Shown piece by piece: positions 6,056-63,755 of a DNA stretch of 64,000 nt (position 1 is its first letter; each line of letters opens with the position of its first letter). Below the pieces are notes generated by a model. It saw only the letters and a program-made list of their open reading frames with translations, was not told where the DNA came from and ran no database searches. The stretch is from Odiellus spinosus. Lineage: Eukaryota > Arthropoda > Arachnida > Opiliones > Phalangiidae. The DNA is taken from assembly GCA_963920705.1 (NCBI GenBank), contig OY987234.1:19859794-19923793 (forward strand), in the 5' to 3' direction. The position numbers and the translations under genes were made by a program.

Positions 6056-6392
6056 CAGAAGCCGATGAAACCCTCCTTTGAAGTCTACTACTCCAATGTT
6101 CCATATAGCGCTCCTCTCTGTATGGGTAAAATTCCCAATTTTACGAGATCGGAGGGGCCTACTTCATACCCCCCTGTCTAAGGAAAATTGGAAATTCTCT
6201 CTCTCCACAAACGGCGACGTTTTTTGGACGAACTCCAAGGCTGCTAGAGATATTCGCTCGACGAGCTCCCGCTCCGAAAACATCTACCGTTAGGAGGCGT
6301 ACGAATCGCGCCTTTTGAGAATAACCCATACAGAGAGGGGTAGACAAGACCCGGGAGTAATAGACTTCAAAGGAGGGTTTCATCGGCTTCTG
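6056..6392 (+). mobile_element. CAGAAG-family MITE, copy 3 (mosaic A/B)
   Basis: Complete copy with the direct repeat ACTTAAT at 6049-6055 and 6393-6399. The left half carries the subfamily A block ATCGGAGGGG, but the right half carries the subfamily B block TTTTGAGAATAACCC. It shares a GAGCTCC variant with copies 4 and 14. Confidence 0.93.
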
Positions 6393-31606: not shown

Positions 31607-31612
31607 ACTGTA
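31607..31612. repeat. Target-site duplication, left (ACTGTA)
   Basis: ACTGTA directly precedes the first base of the palindromic element. The same six bases follow its last base at 43,969-43,974. Confidence 0.9.
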
Positions 31613-31716
31613 AGTAGGGGGAAAATGAGCGTACTGCCCCACTTGGGAGCCGATGGAGCCGATGGAGCCGGGAGCTCAAAATGGCGCCCATTTTTTTATT
31701 TTTATTTTTATTATTC

Positions 31717-31747
<31 letters not shown>

Positions 31748-31812
31748 CATCCGGGTTTCGAACCTGGTACCCAATGTATGTGAGGTAAGTGCATTAGCAG
31801 ACTACGCCGTCT
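31748..31812 (-). other. tRNA-like sequence with poly(A) run, left arm
   Basis: Read on the minus strand, this stretch holds an A-box-like GGCGTAGTCTGCTAATGCAC and a B-box GGTTCGAAACC at the spacing of a tRNA gene, followed by a 27-base A run (31,721-31,747). The acceptor strands do not pair and the T stem has a mismatch, so it is not a functional tRNA. It looks like the head of a tRNA-derived SINE or a retroposed tRNA. Confidence 0.55.
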
Positions 31813-31847
31813 TCTCATATCAACTTTAAAAATATTTTCCATCCTTA

Positions 31848-32205
31848 TCTATATTCTCGGTTCTTATCTCTGTGTACATTTATCACTGAAAGTTTAAATG
31901 ATAAGGCGCCAAATCAAATGCGATTCTATAACCTATACTGAAACCTCTTTAAGCCTTTATCGTTTTCGAATTCCGCGCGGGTTTCCTATCGTATTATCAC
32001 CTATGCCAGATCTTATCTTAAAACTCATTGGAAAAATAAATATATTTTTATATTCTTGTTTCTTATCTCTATGTTCATATATCACATGATTGAAAGTTTA
32101 AATGATAAGGCGCTAAATCAAATGTGAATCTATAACCTATACTGAAACCTCTTAAAGCCTTTATCGTTTTCGAATTTCGCGCGGTTCTCCTATCAGTAGT
32201 ATCAT
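31848..32205. repeat. Tandem duplication, period 204 bp, left arm
   Basis: GAAAGTTTAAATGATAAGG starts at 31,888 and again at 32,092, and the following ~110 bases are nearly the same (through CCTTTATCGTTTTCGAATT). It is mirrored in the right arm at about 43,376-43,733. Confidence 0.8.
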
Positions 32206-32489
32206 GTTATCGACAAAAGTCTTTGCGTGTCCTATCTCAAATCACACCAGATAAATTGATGGATTTTCAAATATCTTAACAAATAACTACAAGAATTTCC
32301 CCAAGTAAACATAACTATAAATTTTAACTACAAATATACAATTATTTGTCTTAAACATTATAATAAATGCGGAAAAATACTCAAACAAGCTGACGAACAC
32401 CACGATATCAAATTAAAATTGGAAAGTTAGGCCTAATTACAACGTGTATGAAAATTGAAATACACTAATGATATATACAATTAAAGCCC

Positions 32490-32760
32490 GTGGTTAAACC
32501 CTACGCGGCATTGGTAAAACGTACTTCCAAAGTTCAAGTACTGATATGTCGCTTGGTAAAAACCTACGCGTCATTGGTAAAACCTATTTCACAACTCAAG
32601 TACTGATTTGACGCTGAATCGCTTGGTAAAACCCTACGCGTCATTGGTAAAACCTATTTCACAACTTATATGACTCATATTTCTAGGTTTAAAAGCGGGT
32701 TTTATCGGGGAAATACGTTGAAACTCGTGGTAAAACCCAACACTTCTTCGAGAAAACCAA
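32490..32760 (+). promoter_or_regulatory. Iterated TGGTAAAAC promoter repeats, left arm
   Basis: About four degenerate units of 60-100 bp, each containing two copies of TGGTAAAAC(C) or a close variant; the middle units read GGTAAAACCTACGCGTCATT then GGTAAAACCTATTTCACAAC. They stop some 30 bp before a TATA box (TATAAAA, 32,792-32,798) that precedes the PC4-like frame. The position and repetition suggest an enhancer-like array. Mirror: 42,821-43,091. Confidence 0.6.
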
Positions 32761-32791
32761 TTTCTCAACTGATATGACACCTATTTTAGAG

Positions 32792-32798
32792 TATAAAA
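32792..32798 (+). promoter_or_regulatory. TATA box of the PC4-like gene, left arm
   Basis: TATAAAA, about 80 bp upstream of a consensus splice donor (GTAAGT at 32,875) and 276 bp upstream of the acceptor before the PC4-like frame. Mirror: 42,783-42,789. Confidence 0.6.
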
Positions 32799-33067
32799 GC
32801 TAGGATATATTTTAGATAAGTCATTTAAAGCTGCCATCAACCGTATTCAAGTCATCCACAAGAACACTAAAAATGTAAGTAGCATTTTACTCTAAAATTA
32901 ACTTATAAATTATTTGTGCCACCCTAAATAACTTGGAAATTATTAACCTAACCCTAAATAACTTTGAAATTTTCACTGTCCTCTTAAATAACTTAGTAAT
33001 TTTTATTCCTGACATCTTATTATTAGTATAAAACCTCAATTAACTTAGCCGTTTCTATCATTTACAG

Positions 33068-33746
33068 GGACAACACGAACGTATTCGAAATCTCATCGAG
33101 AAAATCGGTCACAGTTACTCCCGAATGTGAAATTAGACTTGGATTTACTGATGGATCCACTGGAATTAATCTCAGCGAGGATGAGTACTTTCAAATATAC
33201 CGAATGAGGGAAGAAATCACGCAATACTTCCAAAACGAGGGTGCAAGTCCTTCGTCAGTTTTCTTGGAAGGGTCAAACAATAAACGGGTGGAACTCAAGT
33301 CATACCAGGACCGGAAGATGCTTAATATCCGTGAAATGACGACGGGAAACGGGAAGAACTATGGGATGTTATTTCCCACTAAAAATGGATTCGCCATCGG
33401 AGGAGTTCTATGGGAGAAACTCTTGGAAAAGCATCAACAAGTTGAAATCATGCTTAACGAAACTAAGAAAGTCTACCAAGCTATAAAGGACATAGTAGTT
33501 TCACAGCTAACGGAACTTATTAAAAACTCGTGTAACGGGTGTCTCATTGACCATCCATCGCAATTACAGCACGATTGTTTAACCTATGATTGGGCTGAGC
33601 GTGTAGAAATGAATTTTTCAACTGCGATTAATAATTTAAATATCCAATTAATTACTGAAATTTTTAATAATTCAACTTTTTTAAGTTTCGAATTTTGTAA
33701 GCAAATGGTGACTAGAATTATTTGCATTTCGAAACAATATTTGTAA
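33068..33746 (+). CDS. PC4-like DNA-binding protein frame, left arm
   Basis: An open frame in the palindromic element; the first ATG inside it is at 33,204 (180 residues from there). Counting from that ATG, residues 37-80 have the pattern of the PC4/p15 transcriptional coactivator C-terminal fold: RKMLNIREM, then PTKNGFAIGGVLWEKLLEKH, like the RxVDIR and PxxKGIxLxxxxWxxL signature. A weaker second match (TGINLSEDEYFQIYRM) lies in the open sequence before the ATG. PC4-like proteins bind single-stranded DNA and act in transcription or replication. The frame is open up to 33,068, where a TTTACAG acceptor stands, and a GTAAGT donor lies at 32,875, so a 193-bp 5' intron is likely. AATAAA follows the stop. 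The function is inferred from pattern only. Confidence 0.6.
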
Positions 33747-33900
33747 ATACAAAATAAAATTCCGAATTTCAAACTGTTAAATATGACATTTCTTAATATT
33801 GATATCAAAAGTAGGCAAATAAAACTTTCATATTCTGTTCATATCAAATGGGTAAGGATAATTTCCCCAGAGTGGAAAGGGTGAGAAAAAGGACTTAGAA

Positions 33901-33925
33901 TTAATCAGTGACTCATTGTTTAATT
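33901..33925 (+). promoter_or_regulatory. AP-1-like promoter module, left arm, site 1
   Basis: Contains ATCAGTGACTCATTGTTTAA, with the AP-1/Maf core TGACTCA, about 100 bp upstream of the zinc-finger frame. A near-identical 20-mer recurs at 35,388 in front of another TATA box. Mirror: 41,656-41,680. Confidence 0.55.
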
Positions 33926-34003
33926 ATCAAAGTTTAAGTTCTCACCAAGCATCATCATCTCTTCCGGTAATACTAAAAGTCTTTAACTTAAGTTAGTTAC
34001 ATT

Positions 34004-34675
34004 ATGGTCATCTGTCGCAATTGTGGGGCTAAGTTTTCCCAAGTTGGAAGATTACTTCAACATGCTCGAGAAAAACACGAGTATGAAGAATTCCCGTGTA
34101 AATTTTGCAACGTATACTTCACAAAGAAGGAGCACCTCACCATCCATAGTCTATCCCGCCATAAGGAAGAAACGAGTCGTGAATCCATCCTGAAACGAGC
34201 TCGATCCATGGAATCTATCGAGAACGTTAAGAAGACGAAGATGAACGAGACTACATCCCAGACTATCGCCATAATCGCATCTATCAACGATGTCCCGTCA
34301 TCCTCCAGCGATGTCCCGTCCACTTCTACCGATGGTCCATCATCACCCAACGATGTCTTATCACCTTCCAACGATGTCCCGATCACTTCAGCTGATGGTC
34401 CGTCCGTCCCCAACGTAGCTCCAGACGTTTCATTTACCACATCATCAAACATCCAACCCACTGAGAACCTTAACAACGACAGGAAGAATTTACATCAACC
34501 CTTCCGGCTATATGTATGTGCGAAGAACGAAATTTATTCGATGTCGGGTCGTGAATTATCACTCCACGATATATATAAAAATACTGTCAACATTCATCGT
34601 CCAAGACTTGGAAGAAATATTCGTAAAAAGTACAGTGGAGTATTACGAAGATTTTATAGATGTATACGAGGATGA
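34004..34675 (+). CDS. Two-finger C2H2 zinc-finger protein frame, left arm
   Basis: A 223-residue frame. Two C2H2 fingers stand at the N-terminus: C4, C7, H20, H25 and C32, C35, H48, H53, both with the C-x2-C-x12-H-x4-H spacing. A basic stretch follows (about 60-80), then a low-complexity region (about 95-150) of repeated Asp-Val-Pro/Asp-Gly-Pro and Ser/Thr units. Such a layout suits a sequence-specific DNA-binding regulator with a flexible linker. The start ATG is 27 bp from an upstream in-frame-neutral AT-rich leader and lies downstream of the AP-1-like module. The end overlaps the next frame by 164 bp in another reading frame. No close relative is recognised. Confidence 0.65.
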   Translation: MVICRNCGAKFSQVGRLLQHAREKHEYEEFPCKFCNVYFTKKEHLTIHSLSRHKEETSRESILKRARSMESIENVKKTKMNETTSQTIAIIASINDVPSSSSDVPSTSTDGPSSPNDVLSPSNDVPITSADGPSVPNVAPDVSFTTSSNIQPTENLNNDRKNLHQPFRLYVCAKNEIYSMSGRELSLHDIYKNTVNIHRPRLGRNIRKKYSGVLRRFYRCIRG

Positions 34676-35153
34676 TGAGGACGAGTGGGATGACGTGCTG
34701 AATGATTCCTTAAACATAATTATAGATCCGAGCGTCAAGTTATCATGGTTTCAATACAATAGAGTGTTGAACACAGAATACAGTGACCCACCCCCATACT
34801 TCATAACAGGTAATCACATTATCACATCGTACTATTCGGTGCGTAGGAAATATTTCGAGAAGTATCGAAGATTACGTATGTGTAGCGATTGCTTCCAGCT
34901 TGAAGGCGTTATATCTTCCGAAGACGACGTTGATCACATTCAATACCACGGATACATAAACCCCGAAAACGTAGGAGAAATAGTCACCAACGTGTTTGCT
35001 ACATGGTGTAACAATTGTTTACGTACGCCCTTATTTAAATTTTTGGATGATGTACGTTGTAAAGTATTAACTAAGTTTCATGTTGATAAAATTAATTTAT
35101 TTACTACCGAAGAGAATGACGACGTACGAACGGTTATAAAACGTAGCAAATAA
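34512..35153 (+). CDS. Acidic, Cys-rich protein frame, left arm
   Basis: A 213-residue frame that overlaps the zinc-finger frame. It has an acidic patch (EDDEDEWDD, about residues 53-61), a hydrophobic-aromatic middle, and a possible zinc-binding cluster: CSDC at 124-127, H142 and H146, and CNNC at 166-169. AATAAA motifs follow the stop at about 35,147 and 35,209. I do not recognise the family. The overlap of about 160 bp with the previous frame may mean that the two are expressed by alternative transcripts, which the sequence alone does not settle. Confidence 0.5.
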   Translation: MYVRRTKFIRCRVVNYHSTIYIKILSTFIVQDLEEIFVKSTVEYYEDFIDVYEDDEDEWDDVLNDSLNIIIDPSVKLSWFQYNRVLNTEYSDPPPYFITGNHIITSYYSVRRKYFEKYRRLRMCSDCFQLEGVISSEDDVDHIQYHGYINPENVGEIVTNVFATWCNNCLRTPLFKFLDDVRCKVLTKFHVDKINLFTTEENDDVRTVIKRSK

Positions 35154-35384
35154 ATTTGCCATTTTCATGTATAATTTTCATATGTATAATCAATAATAGT
35201 GTTTAATTCAATAAAATGGGATATATTAATCTTTCTACTGAAAATCTCTTATTTTTTTCTAACTTCACCATCCTACGAACATTATCACGTTTATCTCTAC
35301 AAATATTTACTTATAACGAGAAAAGTTTCTTTCCTTTCATCATTTAAAAATAAACAAGATTCAACTCAAACGTTGTTTCCCCAT

Positions 35385-35430
35385 CTTAATCGGTGACTCA
35401 TGGTTTAAGGTAATAGGAGGGTATAAATAG
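35385..35430 (+). promoter_or_regulatory. AP-1-like module plus TATA box, left arm, site 2
   Basis: ATCGGTGACTCATGGTTTAA (from about 35,388) is followed within 20 bp by GTATAAATAG (35,421-35,430). About 100 bp further on is a consensus donor GTAAGC (35,531), so a spliced transcript running towards the palindrome centre is possible. No protein frame was found for it. Mirror: 40,151-40,196. Confidence 0.55.
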
Positions 35431-35544
35431 TGAATTTTTCAAATCCTAATCATCACAACCTACAACCCCATCCTCGTCAAAAGGAAGAGAAAAAATAAAT
35501 CTTCACCTCCATCTCCAGAAAATTTCTATCGGTAAGCATGAAAT

Positions 35545-35795
35545 ATATTTTAACGCTGTTAAAATAGGTATTTACGTTAACTCTTAGTTGAAATATAAAA
35601 TAGCTTTCTACACTAAACTTTAGTTTAAATATAAAACAATATATTTTAACGTAGTATTTAAAGTAGTTATCTTCGCTAACCTTTAGTTTAAATTTAAAAT
35701 AGTTTTCCACGCTAAACTCTAGTTTAAATATACAATAGTCTTCTACGTTAACCTATAGTTTAAATATAAAATAGATATCTACGTTAATCTTTAGA
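35545..35795. repeat. AT-rich minisatellite, period about 37 bp, left arm
   Basis: About six to seven degenerate units close to TTTAGTTTAAATATAAAATA followed by GTTTTCTACGCTAAAC. The reading frame of 77 codons that crosses it is an artefact of the repeat. Mirror: 39,786-40,036. Confidence 0.8.
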
Positions 35796-35855
35796 TAGGG
35801 TATAGAAATTGATTCATAGTATTCCCAAGTCAATCCATATTTAGTTGAGAATTCA

Positions 35856-36263
35856 TTATTGGGCATCAATTAGAGCGTATAGTTCAACTTTTTCAAAATC
35901 GTTATTTATCTCCAAAGTGATCATATATTTTGTCTTTAGATCAATCAACAATAGCCGAATGATGTGAAGTACCCCGCAATTATCAACTCTCTTGCCCGAG
36001 ATGTGATAACGATCTCGCGTCAGTTCCAGCTCTCGGGAAACTGCTACACTTTTACATGTCCCGTGATTGCTTTCAACATAGGAAGTGTGTATTGATTCAA
36101 CAAAAGAAGTATTACCGTCCGTCATTATCGAGTGAACAGGCAGTAATGCCTGATGAGCGTTGTTCTGCCGGTGGTGTTCAGAGTTTAAAATATACGATAA
36201 AAAATATTTGTGATTGCATAAAAATAAATTGTTAATTAAAATTTTTATAGTAAATGAATCCAA
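35856..36263 (-). CDS. Small unknown protein frame, left arm
   Basis: Minus-strand frame of 135 residues. An internal ATG at residue 47 would give an 89-residue product beginning MTDGNTSFVES, and the part before it looks like AT-rich leader, so the shorter product is more likely. A TATAAATA motif lies just upstream (mirror position about 39,300). It is transcribed away from the palindrome centre, opposite to the other genes of the arm. There is no recognisable domain and no membrane segment in the shorter form. Confidence 0.4.
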   Translation of the reverse strand: MDSFTIKILINNLFLCNHKYFLSYILNSEHHRQNNAHQALLPVHSIMTDGNTSFVESIHTSYVESNHGTCKSVAVSRELELTRDRYHISGKRVDNCGVLHIIRLLLIDLKTKYMITLEINNDFEKVELYALIDAQ

Positions 36264-36419
36264 TCTCTGAAATTATTTATACTTAAGCCTACTATATTTA
36301 GTAAAGCCTACAAATAACGTCGGATATCTAAGTTAGCCTATACCAATCTAGGATATATATATATATGACAATATTCAAGCTAATCGAAATAGAATAATAA
36401 AGGGGTATTATGAAATTGT

Positions 36420-37700
36420 TCGAGATAAATGAGTAAAAATGACTAAACACCGTCATAAAATGTCCAATCGTCGAGAAAAAATCGTGTGAAAAAGACGAAA
36501 AATCTCAATCTTTAAGCGTGACACAAATTAAAGGCGCAAGAAACGTCTAAGTATCGGGAGAGTCTAACTAACTAGATTAAGTAACAAAGACGGAAGTGTA
36601 AGCGTCGAACGAATTGATAAAAATTGTAAATAGAAAATATGATAAATCAAACTGAAAAAAAGTACGTTGAAATTGATTAGCGGTGGGACAAATTAATTAA
36701 ACCGTGAAAAACGTCTAAATATCGATAGAAGATAATAAGGTTGTGAAAGAAAATTGTTAATGTAATGAAAACATCAAAGACGCAGATAATTGATTGAAAC
36801 CGGTGTAATATATTAAAAAGACGGGAGTAAAATTGTCTAAAGACGCAGATAAATAATTGAAACCGGTGTAATATATTAAAAAGACGGGAGTAAAATTGTC
36901 TAAGAGCCGTCATAAAATGTATAAGCGTCGAACAAAGTGATCTAAAATTAGGGAAAACGATAAAAATGTTTAAGTAGTGAAATAGTTTAACAAAGTTGGA
37001 AGATAAAACGTCCAAGTGTCGGGAAAATAACGAAGATGCGGATATTAATGTCGGAGACTCAAAACTAAATAGGAAAGGAGAGGGATTTTAATATTGAAAT
37101 ACCGAAAGAAGTTAACACTTGATTCGTAAAAATACAATGTTTCTGTAAAATAACAGATACTCGACAAAAGCATTATTACTCTTTGGGTTAGTTTCTTGTA
37201 CGTATTTTCTACGAATACTATGCCGCGACGTGATGATAATTTAACCGCGCGTGTTTAAAATTTGAATCGCACACGTGAACCGCTTAACATAGAGATAAGC
37301 AAAAACACGACTACAGTTTCTGGAACGTTTTTAGCAAGGCTCAATCGTAAAAAGAAGCAAAATCCGCTTTCAACCTTTTCACCAGTATACGATAAAACGA
37401 CGAAAAATTTGTTTATTCGGTAAAACAAATTAACATAACCGTGAAAAAAGTCTAAATATTGGAGAAGTTAATATAAAGCGGAATGAAACGTCTAAGTTTC
37501 GGCATAAACAACAGCAATGTCGAAGAAGCGAAACAAAATAACAGGTCTAAATCAAGGGAGAAATTAACAAAGACGTAAGAAAAACATCTAATTAACGCGA
37601 TAAGGAAGCAAAGACGGGAATGAAAATGTGAAGGTACGTCATAAAATATCCAAGTGTCGATTCAAATTAACAAAATCGTGGGTAAAATTGTATTTGTCAC
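36420..37700. repeat. Degenerate iterons converging on the palindrome centre, left arm
   Basis: A phrase close to AAAACGTCTAAGTGTCGG, spaced by about 30-45 bp of AATTAACAAAGACGGGAG-like sequence, recurs many times (for example near 36,545, 36,705, 37,006, 37,480 and 37,650). A 69-bp unit is duplicated exactly at about 36,770-36,905. The mirror array fills 37,881-39,161. Frames of up to 112 codons here are repeat artefacts. Confidence 0.7.
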
Positions 37701-37771
37701 CATCCTCATCGTCGACGATTCTAACCTAACCTAACTTCGCGAAATTACATCAGGATGAATGGCGGGGCGCC

Positions 37772-37809
37772 TCTTTTCAATCTCCTTGGCGGATCGCCAA
37801 GGAGTTGAC
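37772..37809. repeat. Asymmetric spacer hairpin at the palindrome centre
   Basis: 38 bp not shared by the arms. It holds its own hairpin, CTCCTTGGCG-GAT-CGCCAAGGAG (37,782-37,804), whose centre is about 2.5 bp off the axis of the large palindrome. It is flanked by GC-rich arm ends (GGCGGGGCGCC). Confidence 0.9.
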
Positions 37810-37880
37810 GGCGCCCCGCCATTCATCCTGATGTAATTTCGCGAAGTTAGGTTAGGTTAGAATCGTCGACGATGAGGATG

Positions 37881-39161
37881 GTGACAAATACAATTTTACC
37901 CACGATTTTGTTAATTTGAATCGACACTTGGATATTTTATGACGTACCTTCACATTTTCATTCCCGTCTTTGCTTCCTTATCGCGTTAATTAGATGTTTT
38001 TCTTACGTCTTTGTTAATTTCTCCCTTGATTTAGACCTGTTATTTTGTTTCGCTTCTTCGACATTGCTGTTGTTTATGCCGAAACTTAGACGTTTCATTC
38101 CGCTTTATATTAACTTCTCCAATATTTAGACTTTTTTCACGGTTATGTTAATTTGTTTTACCGAATAAACAAATTTTTCGTCGTTTTATCGTATACTGGT
38201 GAAAAGGTTGAAAGCGGATTTTGCTTCTTTTTACGATTGAGCCTTGCTAAAAACGTTCCAGAAACTGTAGTCGTGTTTTTGCTTATCTCTATGTTAAGCG
38301 GTTCACGTGTGCGATTCAAATTTTAAACACGCGCGGTTAAATTATCATCACGTCGCGGCATAGTATTCGTAGAAAATACGTACAAGAAACTAACCCAAAG
38401 AGTAATAATGCTTTTGTCGAGTATCTGTTATTTTACAGAAACATTGTATTTTTACGAATCAAGTGTTAACTTCTTTCGGTATTTCAATATTAAAATCCCT
38501 CTCCTTTCCTATTTAGTTTTGAGTCTCCGACATTAATATCCGCATCTTCGTTATTTTCCCGACACTTGGACGTTTTATCTTCCAACTTTGTTAAACTATT
38601 TCACTACTTAAACATTTTTATCGTTTTCCCTAATTTTAGATCACTTTGTTCGACGCTTATACATTTTATGACGGCTCTTAGACAATTTTACTCCCGTCTT
38701 TTTAATATATTACACCGGTTTCAATTATTTATCTGCGTCTTTAGACAATTTTACTCCCGTCTTTTTAATATATTACACCGGTTTCAATCAATTATCTGCG
38801 TCTTTGATGTTTTCATTACATTAACAATTTTCTTTCACAACCTTATTATCTTCTATCGATATTTAGACGTTTTTCACGGTTTAATTAATTTGTCCCACCG
38901 CTAATCAATTTCAACGTACTTTTTTTCAGTTTGATTTATCATATTTTCTATTTACAATTTTTATCAATTCGTTCGACGCTTACACTTCCGTCTTTGTTAC
39001 TTAATCTAGTTAGTTAGACTCTCCCGATACTTAGACGTTTCTTGCGCCTTTAATTTGTGTCACGCTTAAAGATTGAGATTTTTCGTCTTTTTCACACGAT
39101 TTTTTCTCGACGATTGGACATTTTATGACGGTGTTTAGTCATTTTTACTCATTTATCTCGA
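37881..39161. repeat. Degenerate iterons, right arm
   Basis: Mirror image of the array at 36,420-37,700. Together they make a roughly 2.7-kb repeat domain around the centre of the element. Confidence 0.7.
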
Positions 39162-39317
39162 ACAATTTCATAATACCCCTTTATTATTCTATTTCGATTA
39201 GCTTGAATATTGTCATATATATATATATCCTAGATTGGTATAGGCTAACTTAGATATCCGACGTTATTTGTAGGCTTTACTAAATATAGTAGGCTTAAGT
39301 ATAAATAATTTCAGAGA

Positions 39318-39725
39318 TTGGATTCATTTACTATAAAAATTTTAATTAACAATTTATTTTTATGCAATCACAAATATTTTTTATCGTATATTTTAAACTC
39401 TGAACACCACCGGCAGAACAACGCTCATCAGGCATTACTGCCTGTTCACTCGATAATGACGGACGGTAATACTTCTTTTGTTGAATCAATACACACTTCC
39501 TATGTTGAAAGCAATCACGGGACATGTAAAAGTGTAGCAGTTTCCCGAGAGCTGGAACTGACGCGAGATCGTTATCACATCTCGGGCAAGAGAGTTGATA
39601 ATTGCGGGGTACTTCACATCATTCGGCTATTGTTGATTGATCTAAAGACAAAATATATGATCACTTTGGAGATAAATAACGATTTTGAAAAAGTTGAACT
39701 ATACGCTCTAATTGATGCCCAATAA
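39318..39725 (+). CDS. Small unknown protein frame, right arm
   Basis: Identical mirror copy of the frame at 35,856-36,263. Here TATAAATA at about 39,300 can be read directly upstream. Confidence 0.4.
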   Translation: MDSFTIKILINNLFLCNHKYFLSYILNSEHHRQNNAHQALLPVHSIMTDGNTSFVESIHTSYVESNHGTCKSVAVSRELELTRDRYHISGKRVDNCGVLHIIRLLLIDLKTKYMITLEINNDFEKVELYALIDAQ

Positions 39726-39785
39726 TGAATTCTCAACTAAATATGGATTGACTTGGGAATACTATGAATCAATTTCTATACCCTA

Positions 39786-40036
39786 TCTAAAGATTAACGT
39801 AGATATCTATTTTATATTTAAACTATAGGTTAACGTAGAAGACTATTGTATATTTAAACTAGAGTTTAGCGTGGAAAACTATTTTAAATTTAAACTAAAG
39901 GTTAGCGAAGATAACTACTTTAAATACTACGTTAAAATATATTGTTTTATATTTAAACTAAAGTTTAGTGTAGAAAGCTATTTTATATTTCAACTAAGAG
40001 TTAACGTAAATACCTATTTTAACAGCGTTAAAATAT
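39786..40036. repeat. AT-rich minisatellite, right arm
   Basis: Mirror copy of the 37-bp repeat at 35,545-35,795. Confidence 0.8.
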
Positions 40037-40150
40037 ATTTCATGCTTACCGATAGAAATTTTCTGGAGATGGAGGTGAAGATTTATTTTTTCTCTTCCTT
40101 TTGACGAGGATGGGGTTGTAGGTTGTGATGATTAGGATTTGAAAAATTCA

Positions 40151-40196
40151 CTATTTATACCCTCCTATTACCTTAAACCATGAGTCACCGATTAAG
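40151..40196 (-). promoter_or_regulatory. AP-1-like module plus TATA box, right arm, site 2
   Basis: Mirror copy of 35,385-35,430. Confidence 0.55.
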
Positions 40197-40427
40197 ATGG
40201 GGAAACAACGTTTGAGTTGAATCTTGTTTATTTTTAAATGATGAAAGGAAAGAAACTTTTCTCGTTATAAGTAAATATTTGTAGAGATAAACGTGATAAT
40301 GTTCGTAGGATGGTGAAGTTAGAAAAAAATAAGAGATTTTCAGTAGAAAGATTAATATATCCCATTTTATTGAATTAAACACTATTATTGATTATACATA
40401 TGAAAATTATACATGAAAATGGCAAAT

Positions 40428-41069
40428 TTATTTGCTACGTTTTATAACCGTTCGTACGTCGTCATTCTCTTCGGTAGTAAATAAATTAATTTTATCAACA
40501 TGAAACTTAGTTAATACTTTACAACGTACATCATCCAAAAATTTAAATAAGGGCGTACGTAAACAATTGTTACACCATGTAGCAAACACGTTGGTGACTA
40601 TTTCTCCTACGTTTTCGGGGTTTATGTATCCGTGGTATTGAATGTGATCAACGTCGTCTTCGGAAGATATAACGCCTTCAAGCTGGAAGCAATCGCTACA
40701 CATACGTAATCTTCGATACTTCTCGAAATATTTCCTACGCACCGAATAGTACGATGTGATAATGTGATTACCTGTTATGAAGTATGGGGGTGGGTCACTG
40801 TATTCTGTGTTCAACACTCTATTGTATTGAAACCATGATAACTTGACGCTCGGATCTATAATTATGTTTAAGGAATCATTCAGCACGTCATCCCACTCGT
40901 CCTCATCATCCTCGTATACATCTATAAAATCTTCGTAATACTCCACTGTACTTTTTACGAATATTTCTTCCAAGTCTTGGACGATGAATGTTGACAGTAT
41001 TTTTATATATATCGTGGAGTGATAATTCACGACCCGACATCGAATAAATTTCGTTCTTCGCACATACAT
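40428..41069 (-). CDS. Acidic, Cys-rich protein frame, right arm
   Basis: Identical mirror copy of the 213-residue frame at 34,512-35,153, with the same acidic patch and CxxC pairs. Confidence 0.5.
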   Translation of the reverse strand: MYVRRTKFIRCRVVNYHSTIYIKILSTFIVQDLEEIFVKSTVEYYEDFIDVYEDDEDEWDDVLNDSLNIIIDPSVKLSWFQYNRVLNTEYSDPPPYFITGNHIITSYYSVRRKYFEKYRRLRMCSDCFQLEGVISSEDDVDHIQYHGYINPENVGEIVTNVFATWCNNCLRTPLFKFLDDVRCKVLTKFHVDKINLFTTEENDDVRTVIKRSK

Positions 41070-41577
41070 ATAGCCGGAAGGGTTGATGTAAATTCTTCCT
41101 GTCGTTGTTAAGGTTCTCAGTGGGTTGGATGTTTGATGATGTGGTAAATGAAACGTCTGGAGCTACGTTGGGGACGGACGGACCATCAGCTGAAGTGATC
41201 GGGACATCGTTGGAAGGTGATAAGACATCGTTGGGTGATGATGGACCATCGGTAGAAGTGGACGGGACATCGCTGGAGGATGACGGGACATCGTTGATAG
41301 ATGCGATTATGGCGATAGTCTGGGATGTAGTCTCGTTCATCTTCGTCTTCTTAACGTTCTCGATAGATTCCATGGATCGAGCTCGTTTCAGGATGGATTC
41401 ACGACTCGTTTCTTCCTTATGGCGGGATAGACTATGGATGGTGAGGTGCTCCTTCTTTGTGAAGTATACGTTGCAAAATTTACACGGGAATTCTTCATAC
41501 TCGTGTTTTTCTCGAGCATGTTGAAGTAATCTTCCAACTTGGGAAAACTTAGCCCCACAATTGCGACAGATGACCAT
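40906..41577 (-). CDS. Two-finger C2H2 zinc-finger protein frame, right arm
   Basis: Identical mirror copy of the 223-residue frame at 34,004-34,675. Both C2H2 fingers are present. Confidence 0.65.
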   Translation of the reverse strand: MVICRNCGAKFSQVGRLLQHAREKHEYEEFPCKFCNVYFTKKEHLTIHSLSRHKEETSRESILKRARSMESIENVKKTKMNETTSQTIAIIASINDVPSSSSDVPSTSTDGPSSPNDVLSPSNDVPITSADGPSVPNVAPDVSFTTSSNIQPTENLNNDRKNLHQPFRLYVCAKNEIYSMSGRELSLHDIYKNTVNIHRPRLGRNIRKKYSGVLRRFYRCIRG

Positions 41578-41655
41578 AATGTAACTAACTTAAGTTAAAG
41601 ACTTTTAGTATTACCGGAAGAGATGATGATGCTTGGTGAGAACTTAAACTTTGAT

Positions 41656-41680
41656 AATTAAACAATGAGTCACTGATTAA
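41656..41680 (-). promoter_or_regulatory. AP-1-like promoter module, right arm, site 1
   Basis: Mirror copy of 33,901-33,925. Confidence 0.55.
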
Positions 41681-41834
41681 TTCTAAGTCCTTTTTCTCAC
41701 CCTTTCCACTCTGGGGAAATTATCCTTACCCATTTGATATGAACAGAATATGAAAGTTTTATTTGCCTACTTTTGATATCAATATTAAGAAATGTCATAT
41801 TTAACAGTTTGAAATTCGGAATTTTATTTTGTAT

Positions 41835-42513
41835 TTACAAATATTGTTTCGAAATGCAAATAATTCTAGTCACCATTTGCTTACAAAATTCGAAACTTAA
41901 AAAAGTTGAATTATTAAAAATTTCAGTAATTAATTGGATATTTAAATTATTAATCGCAGTTGAAAAATTCATTTCTACACGCTCAGCCCAATCATAGGTT
42001 AAACAATCGTGCTGTAATTGCGATGGATGGTCAATGAGACACCCGTTACACGAGTTTTTAATAAGTTCCGTTAGCTGTGAAACTACTATGTCCTTTATAG
42101 CTTGGTAGACTTTCTTAGTTTCGTTAAGCATGATTTCAACTTGTTGATGCTTTTCCAAGAGTTTCTCCCATAGAACTCCTCCGATGGCGAATCCATTTTT
42201 AGTGGGAAATAACATCCCATAGTTCTTCCCGTTTCCCGTCGTCATTTCACGGATATTAAGCATCTTCCGGTCCTGGTATGACTTGAGTTCCACCCGTTTA
42301 TTGTTTGACCCTTCCAAGAAAACTGACGAAGGACTTGCACCCTCGTTTTGGAAGTATTGCGTGATTTCTTCCCTCATTCGGTATATTTGAAAGTACTCAT
42401 CCTCGCTGAGATTAATTCCAGTGGATCCATCAGTAAATCCAAGTCTAATTTCACATTCGGGAGTAACTGTGACCGATTTTCTCGATGAGATTTCGAATAC
42501 GTTCGTGTTGTCC
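41835..42513 (-). CDS. PC4-like DNA-binding protein frame, right arm
   Basis: Identical mirror copy of 33,068-33,746, with the same likely 5' intron (42,514-42,706) and PC4-like pattern. Confidence 0.6.
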
Positions 42514-42782
42514 CTGTAAATGATAGAAACGGCTAAGTTAATTGAGGTTTTATACTAATAATAAGATGTCAGGAATAAAAATTACTAAGTTATTTAAGAG
42601 GACAGTGAAAATTTCAAAGTTATTTAGGGTTAGGTTAATAATTTCCAAGTTATTTAGGGTGGCACAAATAATTTATAAGTTAATTTTAGAGTAAAATGCT
42701 ACTTACATTTTTAGTGTTCTTGTGGATGACTTGAATACGGTTGATGGCAGCTTTAAATGACTTATCTAAAATATATCCTAGC

Positions 42783-42789
42783 TTTTATA
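42783..42789 (-). promoter_or_regulatory. TATA box of the PC4-like gene, right arm
   Basis: Mirror copy of the TATAAAA at 32,792-32,798. Confidence 0.6.
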
Positions 42790-42820
42790 CTCTAAAATAG
42801 GTGTCATATCAGTTGAGAAA

Positions 42821-43091
42821 TTGGTTTTCTCGAAGAAGTGTTGGGTTTTACCACGAGTTTCAACGTATTTCCCCGATAAAACCCGCTTTTAAACCTAGAA
42901 ATATGAGTCATATAAGTTGTGAAATAGGTTTTACCAATGACGCGTAGGGTTTTACCAAGCGATTCAGCGTCAAATCAGTACTTGAGTTGTGAAATAGGTT
43001 TTACCAATGACGCGTAGGTTTTTACCAAGCGACATATCAGTACTTGAACTTTGGAAGTACGTTTTACCAATGCCGCGTAGGGTTTAACCAC
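42821..43091 (-). promoter_or_regulatory. Iterated TGGTAAAAC promoter repeats, right arm
   Basis: Mirror copy of the array at 32,490-32,760. Confidence 0.6.
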
Positions 43092-43375
43092 GGGCTTTAA
43101 TTGTATATATCATTAGTGTATTTCAATTTTCATACACGTTGTAATTAGGCCTAACTTTCCAATTTTAATTTGATATCGTGGTGTTCGTCAGCTTGTTTGA
43201 GTATTTTTCCGCATTTATTATAATGTTTAAGACAAATAATTGTATATTTGTAGTTAAAATTTATAGTTATGTTTACTTGGGGAAATTCTTGTAGTTATTT
43301 GTTAAGATATTTGAAAATCCATCAATTTATCTGGTGTGATTTGAGATAGGACACGCAAAGACTTTTGTCGATAAC

Positions 43376-43733
43376 ATGATACTACTGATAGGAGAACCGC
43401 GCGAAATTCGAAAACGATAAAGGCTTTAAGAGGTTTCAGTATAGGTTATAGATTCACATTTGATTTAGCGCCTTATCATTTAAACTTTCAATCATGTGAT
43501 ATATGAACATAGAGATAAGAAACAAGAATATAAAAATATATTTATTTTTCCAATGAGTTTTAAGATAAGATCTGGCATAGGTGATAATACGATAGGAAAC
43601 CCGCGCGGAATTCGAAAACGATAAAGGCTTAAAGAGGTTTCAGTATAGGTTATAGAATCGCATTTGATTTGGCGCCTTATCATTTAAACTTTCAGTGATA
43701 AATGTACACAGAGATAAGAACCGAGAATATAGA
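43376..43733. repeat. Tandem duplication, period 204 bp, right arm
   Basis: Mirror copy of 31,848-32,205. Confidence 0.8.
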
Positions 43734-43768
43734 TAAGGATGGAAAATATTTTTAAAGTTGATATGAGA

Positions 43769-43833
43769 AGACGGCGTAGTCTGCTAATGCACTTACCTCA
43801 CATACATTGGGTACCAGGTTCGAAACCCGGATG
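43769..43833 (+). other. tRNA-like sequence with poly(A) run, right arm
   Basis: Mirror copy of the tRNA-like stretch, here on the plus strand: A-box-like part from about 43,773, B-box GGTTCGAAACC at about 43,817-43,827, then A27 at 43,834-43,860. Confidence 0.55.
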
Positions 43834-43864
<31 letters not shown>

Positions 43865-43968
43865 GAATAATAAAAATAAAAATAAAAAAATGGGCGCCAT
43901 TTTGAGCTCCCGGCTCCATCGGCTCCATCGGCTCCCAAGTGGGGCAGTACGCTCATTTTCCCCCTACT

Positions 43969-43974
43969 ACTGTA
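43969..43974. repeat. Target-site duplication, right (ACTGTA)
   Basis: Direct repeat of 31,607-31,612, immediately after the last base of the palindrome. Confidence 0.9.
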
Positions 43975-48826: not shown

Positions 48827-49811
48827 CCACAACGCATAACAAATAACCCACAACCGCCTTATTTGCAATTTTATTTCACCTTAGCGCTTGTAATAATAAT
48901 TATTAAGCGTGAAATAGTGAAAATTCGAGAGAATGATCGTGCCTTTAGGCCTAAAGGTTTCATTTTCACGCGTTCCAATAATTACTAGACCAGAGTTAAG
49001 CTACGAGGACAGTATCTGGCAACGTTAAAGAAAAAAAATAGCACGTTTCCTTTTTTAAAATCAGTTAACGTTTTCAGCACGTAACAGAACTATTGTTTAA
49101 TTTGGTTAATTAGAGAATGAAGCTTTGTATACGAGCGTTAGTACAGAAAACTTATTCTCATCGAGCGTGCCAAGATATATCTTAGTGGAAAGAGAGGATC
49201 TTGGGGCGCAAAACTTAAACCTTTGCCTTCTCTTTTACTCCTTAATTAATGATTTTCTTTATTAAATCATTTTACGGACCGTGATCCCGGCGCGAAAACT
49301 CAACGGAACTTCTCTCCTAATTAAGAGTTTATCAATTATTGGATGAGAAGATTTCGATGGAGGAATAGAAAGTTTTGGTACGAATCTTTCTGGCGTGAAG
49401 ACTATCGAGGTGTTACGAGGGTGTAGAAAAGGGTACTATAGGTCCTAACGGGACACTTATATTAGCCCTTGGGGAGAAAAACGAACCAATTTGGTTTTTA
49501 CCCTTTTTAAAATAAAGCGCGAATTGCGAATACTAAAGTGGCAATTAAGTAATTTAATCCAGCAAAATAGAGTATTAATTTCATTTTATATTTGCGTATG
49601 GTTGTAATTTTTATGGAAAACAGAATATGCTCTTTGTAATATATACAGTTATATACTAAGAAATAACTTTGTGAAGTCGATCATAAATTTTGCTAAAGTA
49701 AGGTCTATCCAAATTTGTTTTTAGAATTTTAGGAAATGAAGGTCACAATTTGTCTTAACTATATTGAATGTTATCATAAATAAAAGTTAGTGATGCTGTC
49801 ACCATTAATTT

Positions 49812-51689
49812 TTCTATTAGTGGCGGAATAATCTTTAACGAGTGGCTCATGTCAATTTTATTATTTTAAATTAATCTAAGGAATGTCTTCTTTCTAATGG
49901 TGCTATCGGTTTATGCCTCGGTGATAGTAGAGAAAAGTTATGGCCATTTTAAGATTGGGGTAATTTTTGGATTTTTGCTCGATTTCTATCACTGGCGGAA
50001 TAATCTTTAACGAGTGGCTCATGTCAATTTTATTATTTTAAATTAATCTAGGGAATGTCTTCTTTATAATGGTGCAATCGGTTTATGCCTAGGTGACAGT
50101 AGTGAAAAGTTATGGCCATTTTAAGATAGGGGTCATTTTTGGATTTTTGCTCATTTTCTATCAGTGGTGGAATAATCTTTAAAGAGTGGCTCATGTCAAT
50201 TTTATTATTTTAATATATCTAGGGAATGTCTTCTTTCTAATGGTGCTATCAGTTTATGCCTCGGTGAAAGCAGAGAAAAGTTACGGCCATTTCAAGATAG
50301 GGGTCATTTTTGGATTTTTGCTCGATTTCTATCAGTGGTGGAATAATCTTTAACGAGTGGCTCATGTCAATTTTGTTGTTTTAAATTAATCTAAGGAATG
50401 TCTTCTTTCTAATGGTGCTATCGGTTTATGCCTCGGTGATAGTAGTGAAAAGTTACGGCCATTTTAAGATAGGGGTAATTTTTGGATTTTTGCTCGATTT
50501 CTATCAGTGGCGGAATAATCTTTAAAGAGTGGCTCATGTCAATTTTATTATTTTAAATTAATCTAGGAAATGTCTTCTTTCTAATGGTGCTATCGGTTTA
50601 TGCCTCGGTGATAGTAGAGAAAAGTTACGGCCATTTCAAGAAAGGGGTCATTTTTGGATTTTTGCTCGATTTCTATCAGTGGTGTAATAATCTTTAACGA
50701 GTGGCTCATGTCAATTTTATTATTTTAAATTAATCTAGGGAATGTCTTCTTTCTAATGGTGCTATCGGTTTATGCCTCGGTGATAGCAGAGAAAAGTTAC
50801 GGCCATTTTAAGAAAGGGGTCATTTTTGGATTTTTGCTCGATTTCTATCAGTGGCGGAATAATCTTTAAAGAGTGGCTCATGTCAATTTTATTATTTTAA
50901 ATTAATCTAGGAAATGTCTTCTTTCTAATGGTGCTATCAGTTTATGCCTCGGTGAAAGCAGAGAAAAGTTACGGCCATTTCAAGATAGGGGTCATTTTTG
51001 GATTTTTGCTCGATTTCTATCAGTGGCGGAATCATCTTTAACGAGTAGCTCATGTCAATTTTATTATTTTAAATTAATCTAAGGAATGTCTTCTTTCTAA
51101 TGGTGCTATCGGTTTATGCCTGGGTGATAGCAGAGAAAAGTTACGGCCATTTCAAGATAGGGGTTATTTTTGGATTTTTGCTCGATATCTATCAGTGGTG
51201 GAATAATCTTTAACGAGTGGCTCATGTCAATTTTATTATTTTAAATTAATCTAGGGAATGTCTTCTTTCTAATGGTGCTATCGGTTTATGGCTCGGTGAT
51301 AGGAGAGAAAAGTTACGGCCATTTTAAGATAGGGGTCATTTTTGGATTTTTGCTCGATTTCTATTAGTGGTGTAATAATCTTTAACGAGTGGCTCATGTC
51401 AATTTTATTATTTTAAATTAATCTAGGGAATGTCTTCTTTCTAATGGTGCAAACGGTTTATGCATCGGTGATAGTAGAGAAAAGTTACGGCCATTTTAAG
51501 ATAGGGGTAATTTTTGGATTTTTGCTCGATTTCTATCAGTGGCGGAATAATCTTTAAAGAGTGGCTCATGTCAATTTTATTATTTTAAATTAATCTAGGA
51601 AATGTCTTCTTTCTAATGGTGCTATCGGTTTATGCCTCGGTGATAGTAGAGAAAAGTTACGGCCATTTCAAGATGGGGGTCATTTTTGA
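49812..51689. repeat. Satellite array, 11 units of about 172 bp
   Basis: The landmark GAATGTCTTCTTTCTAATGG or its variant recurs at 49,881, 50,053, 50,224, 50,396, 50,568, 50,740, 50,912, 51,084, 51,256, 51,428 and 51,600. The spacing is 172 bp, once 171. Two unit types are interspersed: units 5, 7 and 11 share AAAGAGTGG plus GGAAATG. No reading frame is conserved across the units. The family also occurs as a 178-bp form at 62,971. Confidence 0.95.
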
Positions 51690-62970: not shown

Positions 62971-63755
62971 GGAGGTCGTACAGAAAAGTTCCTGTCATTT
63001 GCATTTTAGTTTTAGAGCTCATTTTTGGACTTTTGCTCGATTTCTATCGAGTGGCGAAACACATTTAATGAGTGGCGAAGCAATATTTTATGATCTTAAA
63101 ATAATATTCGGAATGTCTACTTTCTAATGGCGCAATCGGTTTATGCCTAGGAGGTCGCGGAAAAAAGTTACGACCATTTGCATTTTAATATAGGGCTCAT
63201 TTTTGGACTTTTGCTCGATTTCTATCGAGTGGCGAAACACATTTAATGAGTGGCGAAGCAATATTTTATGATCTTAAAATAATATTCGGAATGTCTACTT
63301 TCTAATGGCGCAATCGGTTTATGCCTAGGAGGTCGCGGAAAAAAGTTACGACCATTTGCATTTTAATATAGGGCTCATTTTTGGACTTTTGCTCGATTTC
63401 TATCGAGTGGCGAAACACATTTAATGAGTGGCGAAGCAATATTTTATGATCTTAAAATAATATTCGGAATGTCTACTTTCTAATGGCGCAATCGGTTTAT
63501 GCCTAGGAGGTCGCGGAGAAATGTTACAGCCATTTGCATTTTAATATAGGGCTCATTTTTGGACTTTTGCTCGATTTCTATCGAGTGGCGAAACACATTT
63601 AATGAGTGGCGAAGCAATATTTTATGATCTTAAAATAATATTCGGAATGTCTACTTTCTAATGGCGCAATCGGTTTATGCCTAGGAGGTCGCGGAGAAAT
63701 GTTACAGCCATTTGCATTTTAATATATGGCTCATTTTTGGACTTTTGCTCGATTT
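62971..63755. repeat. Satellite array, about 4.4 units of 178 bp
   Basis: GAATGTCTACTTTCTAATGG recurs at 63,111, 63,289, 63,467 and 63,645, exactly 178 bp apart. The units are nearly identical. The first two repeat junctions read GGAAAAAAGTTACGACC and the last two GGAGAAATGTTACAGCC. It is clearly related to the 172-bp array at 49,812 through the shared ATCGGTTTATGCC and TTTTGCTCGATTTCTATC blocks. Confidence 0.95.

Follow-up and report, generated by a model that had tools for sequence, protein, structure and literature searches.

Introduction

To our knowledge, protein-primed replication of Polintons (Mavericks) has been inferred from their polymerase and not watched. Protein-primed linear plasmids of yeast have palindromic and hairpin derivatives. 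Copying by relatives of the Polinton polymerase (PolB) is described as protein-primed (PMC11071308), and the published Polinton gene set (PMC4028283, PMC11071308) matches the integrase, ATPase, protease and PolB of the full-length element described below. Transposons of the Galileo/Foldback type include copies made of long inverted repeats, like the locus studied here, but are described with a P-superfamily transposase and 7-bp target-site duplications (TSDs) (PMC3573991). Here, we analyzed a 64,000-nt stretch of DNA from Odiellus spinosus (hereafter the window; contig OY987234.1), which lies within contig C12 of the 443-Mb, 286-contig host assembly and contains a palindromic element of 12,356 bp. 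Probably, this element belongs to a family of snap-back Polinton derivatives that are replicated via hairpins and integrated by a supplied integrase; the replication steps and the supply of integrase are the parts of this reading that we infer.

Architecture of the palindrome

The two arms of the window element mirror each other over 6,159 nt without a single mismatch or indel, the 27-nt T/A runs included, and their symmetry breaks off precisely at ACTGTA on the left and on the right. The perfect mirroring through a 27-base homopolymer, as described by an earlier sequence-only reading, was thus confirmed. Beyond the TSDs, the mirrored flanks of this copy share 27% identity over 200 nt, which is chance level. 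Between the arms lies a 38-nt spacer, whose fold as single-stranded DNA into a stem with a GAT loop was matched by none of 200 shuffled sequences (Table 1). Telomere-like CTAACC repeats (window 37720-37737 and mirror) adjoin the centre. At loci of the full-length type, such repeats adjoin the protease gene in the orientation opposite to that in the window, and they were possibly part of the original turn.

Relationship to a full-length Polinton

A full-length Polinton of 12,651 bp with the TSD CACGTA is present in the same genome at C6:17517831-17530481 (loci are given as contig and position). Its terminal inverted repeats (TIRs) of ~295 bp are 92% alike (276 of 299 columns). It encodes an rve integrase (1.8e-12, above the cut-off), an adenovirus IVa2-like ATPase and an adenovirus-type protease (1.7e-4 and 5e-4, both slightly below the cut-off), gene A of the window element and an open reading frame (ORF) of 405 amino acids without a Pfam match. 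Its polymerase palm piece alone gave no Pfam match. We call it PolB because it is 55% identical to reading frames at C7:4.27M, which match DNA_pol_B_2 at 5.6e-13, and because the N-terminal part aligns to the same frames at 7e-62.

The right end of this Polinton matches the end of the window element at 99% over 660 bp, and its other end does so at 90.5% over 305 aligned columns. Its own TIRs are 8% apart, and yet one of its ends resembles the window element at 99%, which suggests that Polintons and palindromes have recombined. Gene A is 91% identical between the two elements, and gene B aligns to the N-terminus of the PolB frame (blastp E 3e-16, 45 of 169 residues identical), this homologue of the N-terminal zinc fingers being the only part of PolB found in the arm. 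Close to the centre, window 37212-37283 matches L083 with 73 bits, compared to 30 for the best of 200 shuffles, and at the three full-length-type loci L083, L087 and L035 this match falls between PolB and the protease. Since ends, gene A, PolB start and intergenic remnant each find their match, the sequence comparison indicates that the arm follows Polinton order: end, gene A, PolB start, a gap where most of PolB was lost, PolB-protease region and turn. The Polinton descent proposed by the sequence-only reading is therefore supported by a resident full-length relative with shared ends, gene A and zinc-finger PolB start. Its proposal of a half-genome copied back on itself stands insofar as part of a genome appears turned on itself; the arm is no plain half, however, as most of PolB is gone and a PolB-protease piece lies near the centre.

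A Pfam scan of the six arm ORFs returned no rve integrase, DNA_pol_B_2, packaging ATPase, protease or capsid match, which says little for capsid proteins as these often escape Pfam. The sequence-only reading had likewise seen no polymerase, integrase or capsid gene. Full-length relatives in the genome could provide the proteins that the arm lacks. Judged from its ends and internal homology, which are those of the full-length element, the window element is best described as a non-autonomous Polinton derivative. If the element were a cut-and-paste transposon resembling Foldback or Galileo, long inverted repeats would likewise make up the whole of it, as in the two-TIR copies of Galileo, but the latter make TSDs of 7 bp instead of 6 (PMC3573991). 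This explanation, which we regard as highly improbable, is contradicted by the ends and gene A in common with a Polinton, by the N-terminal part of PolB within the arm and by the rve integrase of the full-length relative.

A family of palindromic copies

We searched the assembly with an arm piece (window 34004-34650) and took matches of at least 91% over at least 500 nt as strong; 40 of 47 candidate loci were scored, and all locus counts are lower bounds. The piece is present twice and mirrored at at least 12 of at least 15 strong-match loci, the others being C12:10.03M, C2:31.06M and C3:2.07M. Pieces from the end, middle and centre also take mirrored positions wherever they are listed. At C11:22278530-22290881 the symmetry of coordinates is exact to the base, with four piece pairs that each sum to 44569411. 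Some copies are altered: one arm of C2:31.06M lacks its interior, arm position 687 being fused to the centre, the turn of C3:6.38M is shifted, and foreign DNA interrupts one arm of the C5:0.68M copy. This interrupted copy is enclosed by a second inverted pair (L031 1-1886 and L033 1-1882, 99.7% alike) without a match to the window arm.

In a gene A tree, 14 palindrome-type rows (13 loci, including the one-armed C12:10.03M) fall on one side of a branch with support of 82/70, found in 88% of 200 bootstrap trees. This grouping makes a single origin of the window-type palindromes likely but not firm. The genome search proposed by the sequence-only reading therefore yielded both palindromic and full-length relatives, and its single snap-back event gives way to a family of at least 12 mirrored copies.

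Insertion sites and natural empty sites

Ends with flanks were read for three mirrored copies, in the window, on C6 and on C11. All three have perfect 6-bp TSDs, which differ from each other (ACTGTA, CCTCGG and AAGAAG, respectively), and mirrored flanks of 21-28% identity. A palindrome made by the host after insertion was rejected, since the TSDs enclose the whole palindrome at three different sites.

The window contains tandem arrays of related 172- and 178-bp satellite units (49811-51688 and 62996-63755), and the C11 palindrome is inserted within a satellite of this kind. Eleven monomers of the 172-bp array align to the rejoined C11 flanks over 114 nt, ten of them ungapped and the eleventh with one gap, and represent natural empty sites; at the array at 63 kb, four units align at 79.6%. 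Fold-back chimeras typically look perfectly symmetric, and an assembly or read artefact, either such a chimera or a collapsed repeat, would account for the symmetry in the window. Against this, symmetry halts at three different TSDs with unrelated flanks, empty sites exist, and the at least 12 mirrored loci are distinguished from each other by changes present in both arms alike; we give an artefact next to no credence. As a separate observation, two opposite single ends 150 kb apart on C1 (L028, C1:8.97M; L029, C1:8.82M) have nearly the same flanks, pointing to a segmental duplication and not to two insertions.

Concerted evolution of the arms

In a gene B piece compared across 12 copies, the differences between the two arms within copies total 2 substitutions in 7,828 sites and a single 21-nt indel, at C149:0.88M, whereas different copies are separated by as many as 15 substitutions and 50 gap columns. 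Similarly, the arms of C5:0.68M differ at 10 of 3,645 sites, while the copy is 2-5% away from that in the window. The C6 and C11 copies, which occupy different sites, have changes at arm positions 778, 781 and 937 in common, in both arms, and neither window arm has them. Present in both arms of two insertions, these changes must have been in both arms before insertion. Because arms differ far less within copies than between them, one arm is rewritten from the other during propagation, and arm identity does not stem from youth alone.

Alternatively, chromosomal gene conversion after insertion, and not a replication intermediate, might keep the arms identical. Such conversion could explain why arm position 449 is altered in both arms of C11 only, and why gene A has one TAG in each arm at C149:3.64M and C5:2.88M. 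Yet the three shared changes predate insertion, and unmirrored changes remain in the C6 copy (3 in 2,160 sites) as well as in C5:0.68M, so that we consider gene conversion quite unlikely.

Further palindromes and their turns

To place the family among its relatives, we used surveys of gene A and of PolB with 150 listed matches each; the counts in this section refer to these matches. Gene A forms convergent inverted pairs at at least 25 loci. The partners are unlike at three of these, C5:2.26M, C9 and C73, which are not necessarily palindromes. A further mirrored locus, C5:0.68M, has wider spacing, and one gene A pair is divergent. No inverted partner lies within 16 kb of 94 of the 150 matches; at least 34 of these 94 have PolB downstream on the same strand, at least 31 of them at a distance of 3.2-4.7 kb, which is the full-length order.

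PolB resides in both arms at C12:8.01M, C17:4.92M and C47; reading the centre of C12:8.01M and that of C17:4.92M showed both to be palindromic. Other loci, among them C192, C210, C215 and C183, combine paired gene A with one PolB match each. An argument from equal packaging size (12.36 versus 12.65 kb) was dropped, as C47, C17:4.92M and C12:8.01M reach ~15 kb by extrapolation from gene A. Divergent PolB pairs occur at at least 20 loci, the pair at C4:1.53M spanning 760 bp only; C7:4269570-4281293 was read, and the others were judged from coordinates. This element comprises 11,724 bp with the TSD AACTGT and ends AGTAGTAGG, and its PolB frame is open over at least 961 amino acids in both arms. 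Leaving the spacer aside, a single site distinguishes its arms over the inner 3.9 kb, and in the outer 1.9 kb a C-run is 2 nt longer in one arm than in the other. In the same PolB frame (L082, C7:4271501-4279400), a recombination endonuclease VII match (3.8e-7, above the cut-off) precedes the polymerase domain. With PolB in both arms of some palindromes, a foreign polymerase would not be required by all of them. The palindrome class is larger than first supposed.

The turns differ in position. The element at C5:5.286M turns within the PolB palm, where a short stem is imperfect and retains one mismatch; besides the turn, its 372 paired positions show 2 further differences. Snap-back is our interpretation, and its best trace is at this locus and not in the window. 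The re-centred copy C5:2.88M turns at a long (AT)n run and not at the family centre.

Genes of the arm

Gene A, whose product is PC4-like, probably has a start codon split by an intron (AT/GTAAG...CAG/G, as read by eye). Its ratio of nonsynonymous to synonymous substitution (dN/dS) between the window copy and unpaired copies is 0.06-0.11 in 12 of 13 comparisons, and 0.32 against C183:1.427M, which lies near a contig end. Against the paired copies of C215 and C192 it is 0.14-0.36, and among palindromes 0.12-0.63 where defined; it is undefined for four pairs that show 1-5 changes, none of them synonymous, and for three pairs that show no change. Constraint on gene A looks relaxed, on small counts. 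The TAG in each arm of C149:3.64M and C5:2.88M agrees with arms that evolve as one and suggests that gene A is dispensable in cis.

Genes B and C are joined in a single 392-aa frame at C5:0.68M. Assignment of gene C to the terminal-protein domain of PolB found no support (profile comparison E 0.24, probability 0.25%). A pattern search of IMG/VR contigs revealed nothing closely related to gene A or gene C, and gene A had no sequence match in the PDB up to E 1. Structure predictions from single sequences reached a mean predicted local distance difference test score of 42 and 32 for genes A and C, respectively, which was too poor, and were left unused. An ORF near the centre matches COX14 at 9e-5, below the cut-off. 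Each arm also contains about seven units of a 36-nt tandem repeat (window 35560-35794 and mirror). The window has no Rfam match above the gathering score and no tRNA. The coordinates of all features are given in Table 1.

Table 1 Features of the palindromic element and of a satellite array in the window.
Feature	Position	Strand	Basis
Left TSD copy, ACTGTA	31607..31612	.	sequence
Left palindrome arm, 6,159 nt	31613..37771	+	0 mismatches vs right arm
End region common with TIRs of full-length Polinton, starts AGTAGGGGGAAAATGAGCG	31613..31912	+	90.5% and 99% end matches
Gene A, left arm, PC4-like; exon 2 33068-33746	32873..33746	+	PF02229, E 1.3e-7
Gene B, left arm, C2H2 fingers	34004..34675	+	blastp vs PolB N-terminus of full-length Polinton
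Gene C, left arm, unassigned protein	34512..35153	+	best Pfam E 0.044, below cut-off
PolB-protease intergenic remnant of full-length Polintons, near centre	37212..37283	+	82-84% to L083, L087, L035
Spacer at turn, 38 nt, imperfect 14-bp hairpin, GAT loop	37772..37809	.	DNA fold z -6.98
Right palindrome arm, 6,159 nt	37810..43968	-	mirror of left arm
Gene C, right arm	40428..41069	-	mirror copy
Gene B, right arm	40906..41577	-	mirror copy
Gene A, right arm	41835..42708	-	mirror of left arm; sequence match
Right TSD copy, ACTGTA	43969..43974	.	sequence
172-bp satellite array outside element, natural empty sites of C11 copy	49811..51688	.	identity 87.7-93.0%

Proposed mechanism

We propose that the palindromes arose during protein-primed strand-displacement copying, in which the growing 3' end would fold back where an inverted repeat, short and imperfect, allows it to prime on its own strand. 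The product would be a palindrome that carries the same Polinton end twice. For maintenance, the displaced self-complementary strand would fold into a 6.2-kb hairpin with paired arms. Pairing in the hairpin would correct differences between the arms, so that they evolve as one, and copying through the loop would regenerate the whole palindrome. Integration would be carried out in trans by the rve-type integrase of full-length Polintons.

Several observations speak against this model. Its support is assembled sequence, and no replication intermediate, read or transcript was seen. In the only full-length Polinton that was read, PolB is spread over several broken frames, which leaves an intact helper without an example. 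Similar arms could be explained by young insertion alone, although the changes in both arms at two sites could not. For the turns of C7:4.27M, C17:4.92M and C12:8.01M, 16, 30 and 5 out of 200 shuffled sequences, respectively, folded as well as the original, and continuity across the turn of C5:5.286M rests on 8 of 11 bases identical to a distant relative. For the window family, no progenitor was found whose native inverted repeat is still intact where the palindrome turns, and the 488 bp adjoining the centre match nothing in the three loci of full-length type that were examined, save an 18-nt telomere-like run. Most of these 488 bp (to arm position 6106) occur at 96% identity in the PolB-keeping palindrome C17:4.92M.

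The same 488 bp and the shifted turn of C3:6.38M would fit two molecules joined head to head, by end joining or recombination of replicating copies, and then propagated as a palindrome. However, at C5:5.286M the turn consists of PolB sequence and has a short stem, and fold-back predicts turns of just this kind, at AT runs or short inverted repeats. We thus judge head-to-head joining to be unlikely, though deserving of consideration, and favor snap-back followed by hairpin replication.

Discussion

Taken together, our data suggest that what seems to have been an accident of DNA copying has become a way of life for a transposon family. We tentatively raise a wider possibility, which we hold to be somewhat short of probable: palindromy might be a heritable plan of the Polinton genome that arose in several independent lineages, the turn lying close to the PolB-protease region in one, and within PolB, at an AT run or upstream of PolB in others. 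Some members, e.g. C7:4269570-4281293, would then be self-replicating hairpin genomes. Read-through of a palindrome would also give a long hairpin RNA, which could silence full-length Polintons, so that palindromes might serve as inherited interfering particles. Turns at short inverted repeats and co-evolving arms are a record of Polinton copying and make copying via hairpins testable. They also illustrate how replication can yield a defective by-product that goes on to multiply and be inherited as a lineage of its own. There is a fair chance that palindromic Polintons form a class of their own. None was found in the open literature by title and start of abstract among the matches listed, an absence of little weight as subscription journals and Repbase lay largely outside the search.

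Compared to Polintons, the window element has the same kind of ends, 6-bp TSD, gene A and N-terminal PolB fingers as the full-length member in the same genome. It differs in that its inverted repeat takes up 6,159 of 12,356 bp instead of ~295 bp, and in that its arm ORFs lack Pfam matches to integrase, ATPase, protease and polymerase core. The derivatives of yeast linear plasmids likewise lead from a protein-primed replicon to a hairpin and an inverted dimer, as proposed here, but these plasmids do not integrate. In origin-dependent inverted-repeat amplification (ODIRA) of yeast, a template switch at short inverted repeats yields hairpin-capped inverted DNA, a clear likeness, although the segments described in PMC10766183 belong to host chromosomes and not to a transposon. 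The snapback genomes of adeno-associated virus (AAV), as described in PMC8235507, came from virus particles and were not genomic copies multiplying as transposons. Like the window element, they are self-complementary part genomes with one type of end, and they replicate with the help of the full virus. Of the observed parallels that we met, they are the nearest.

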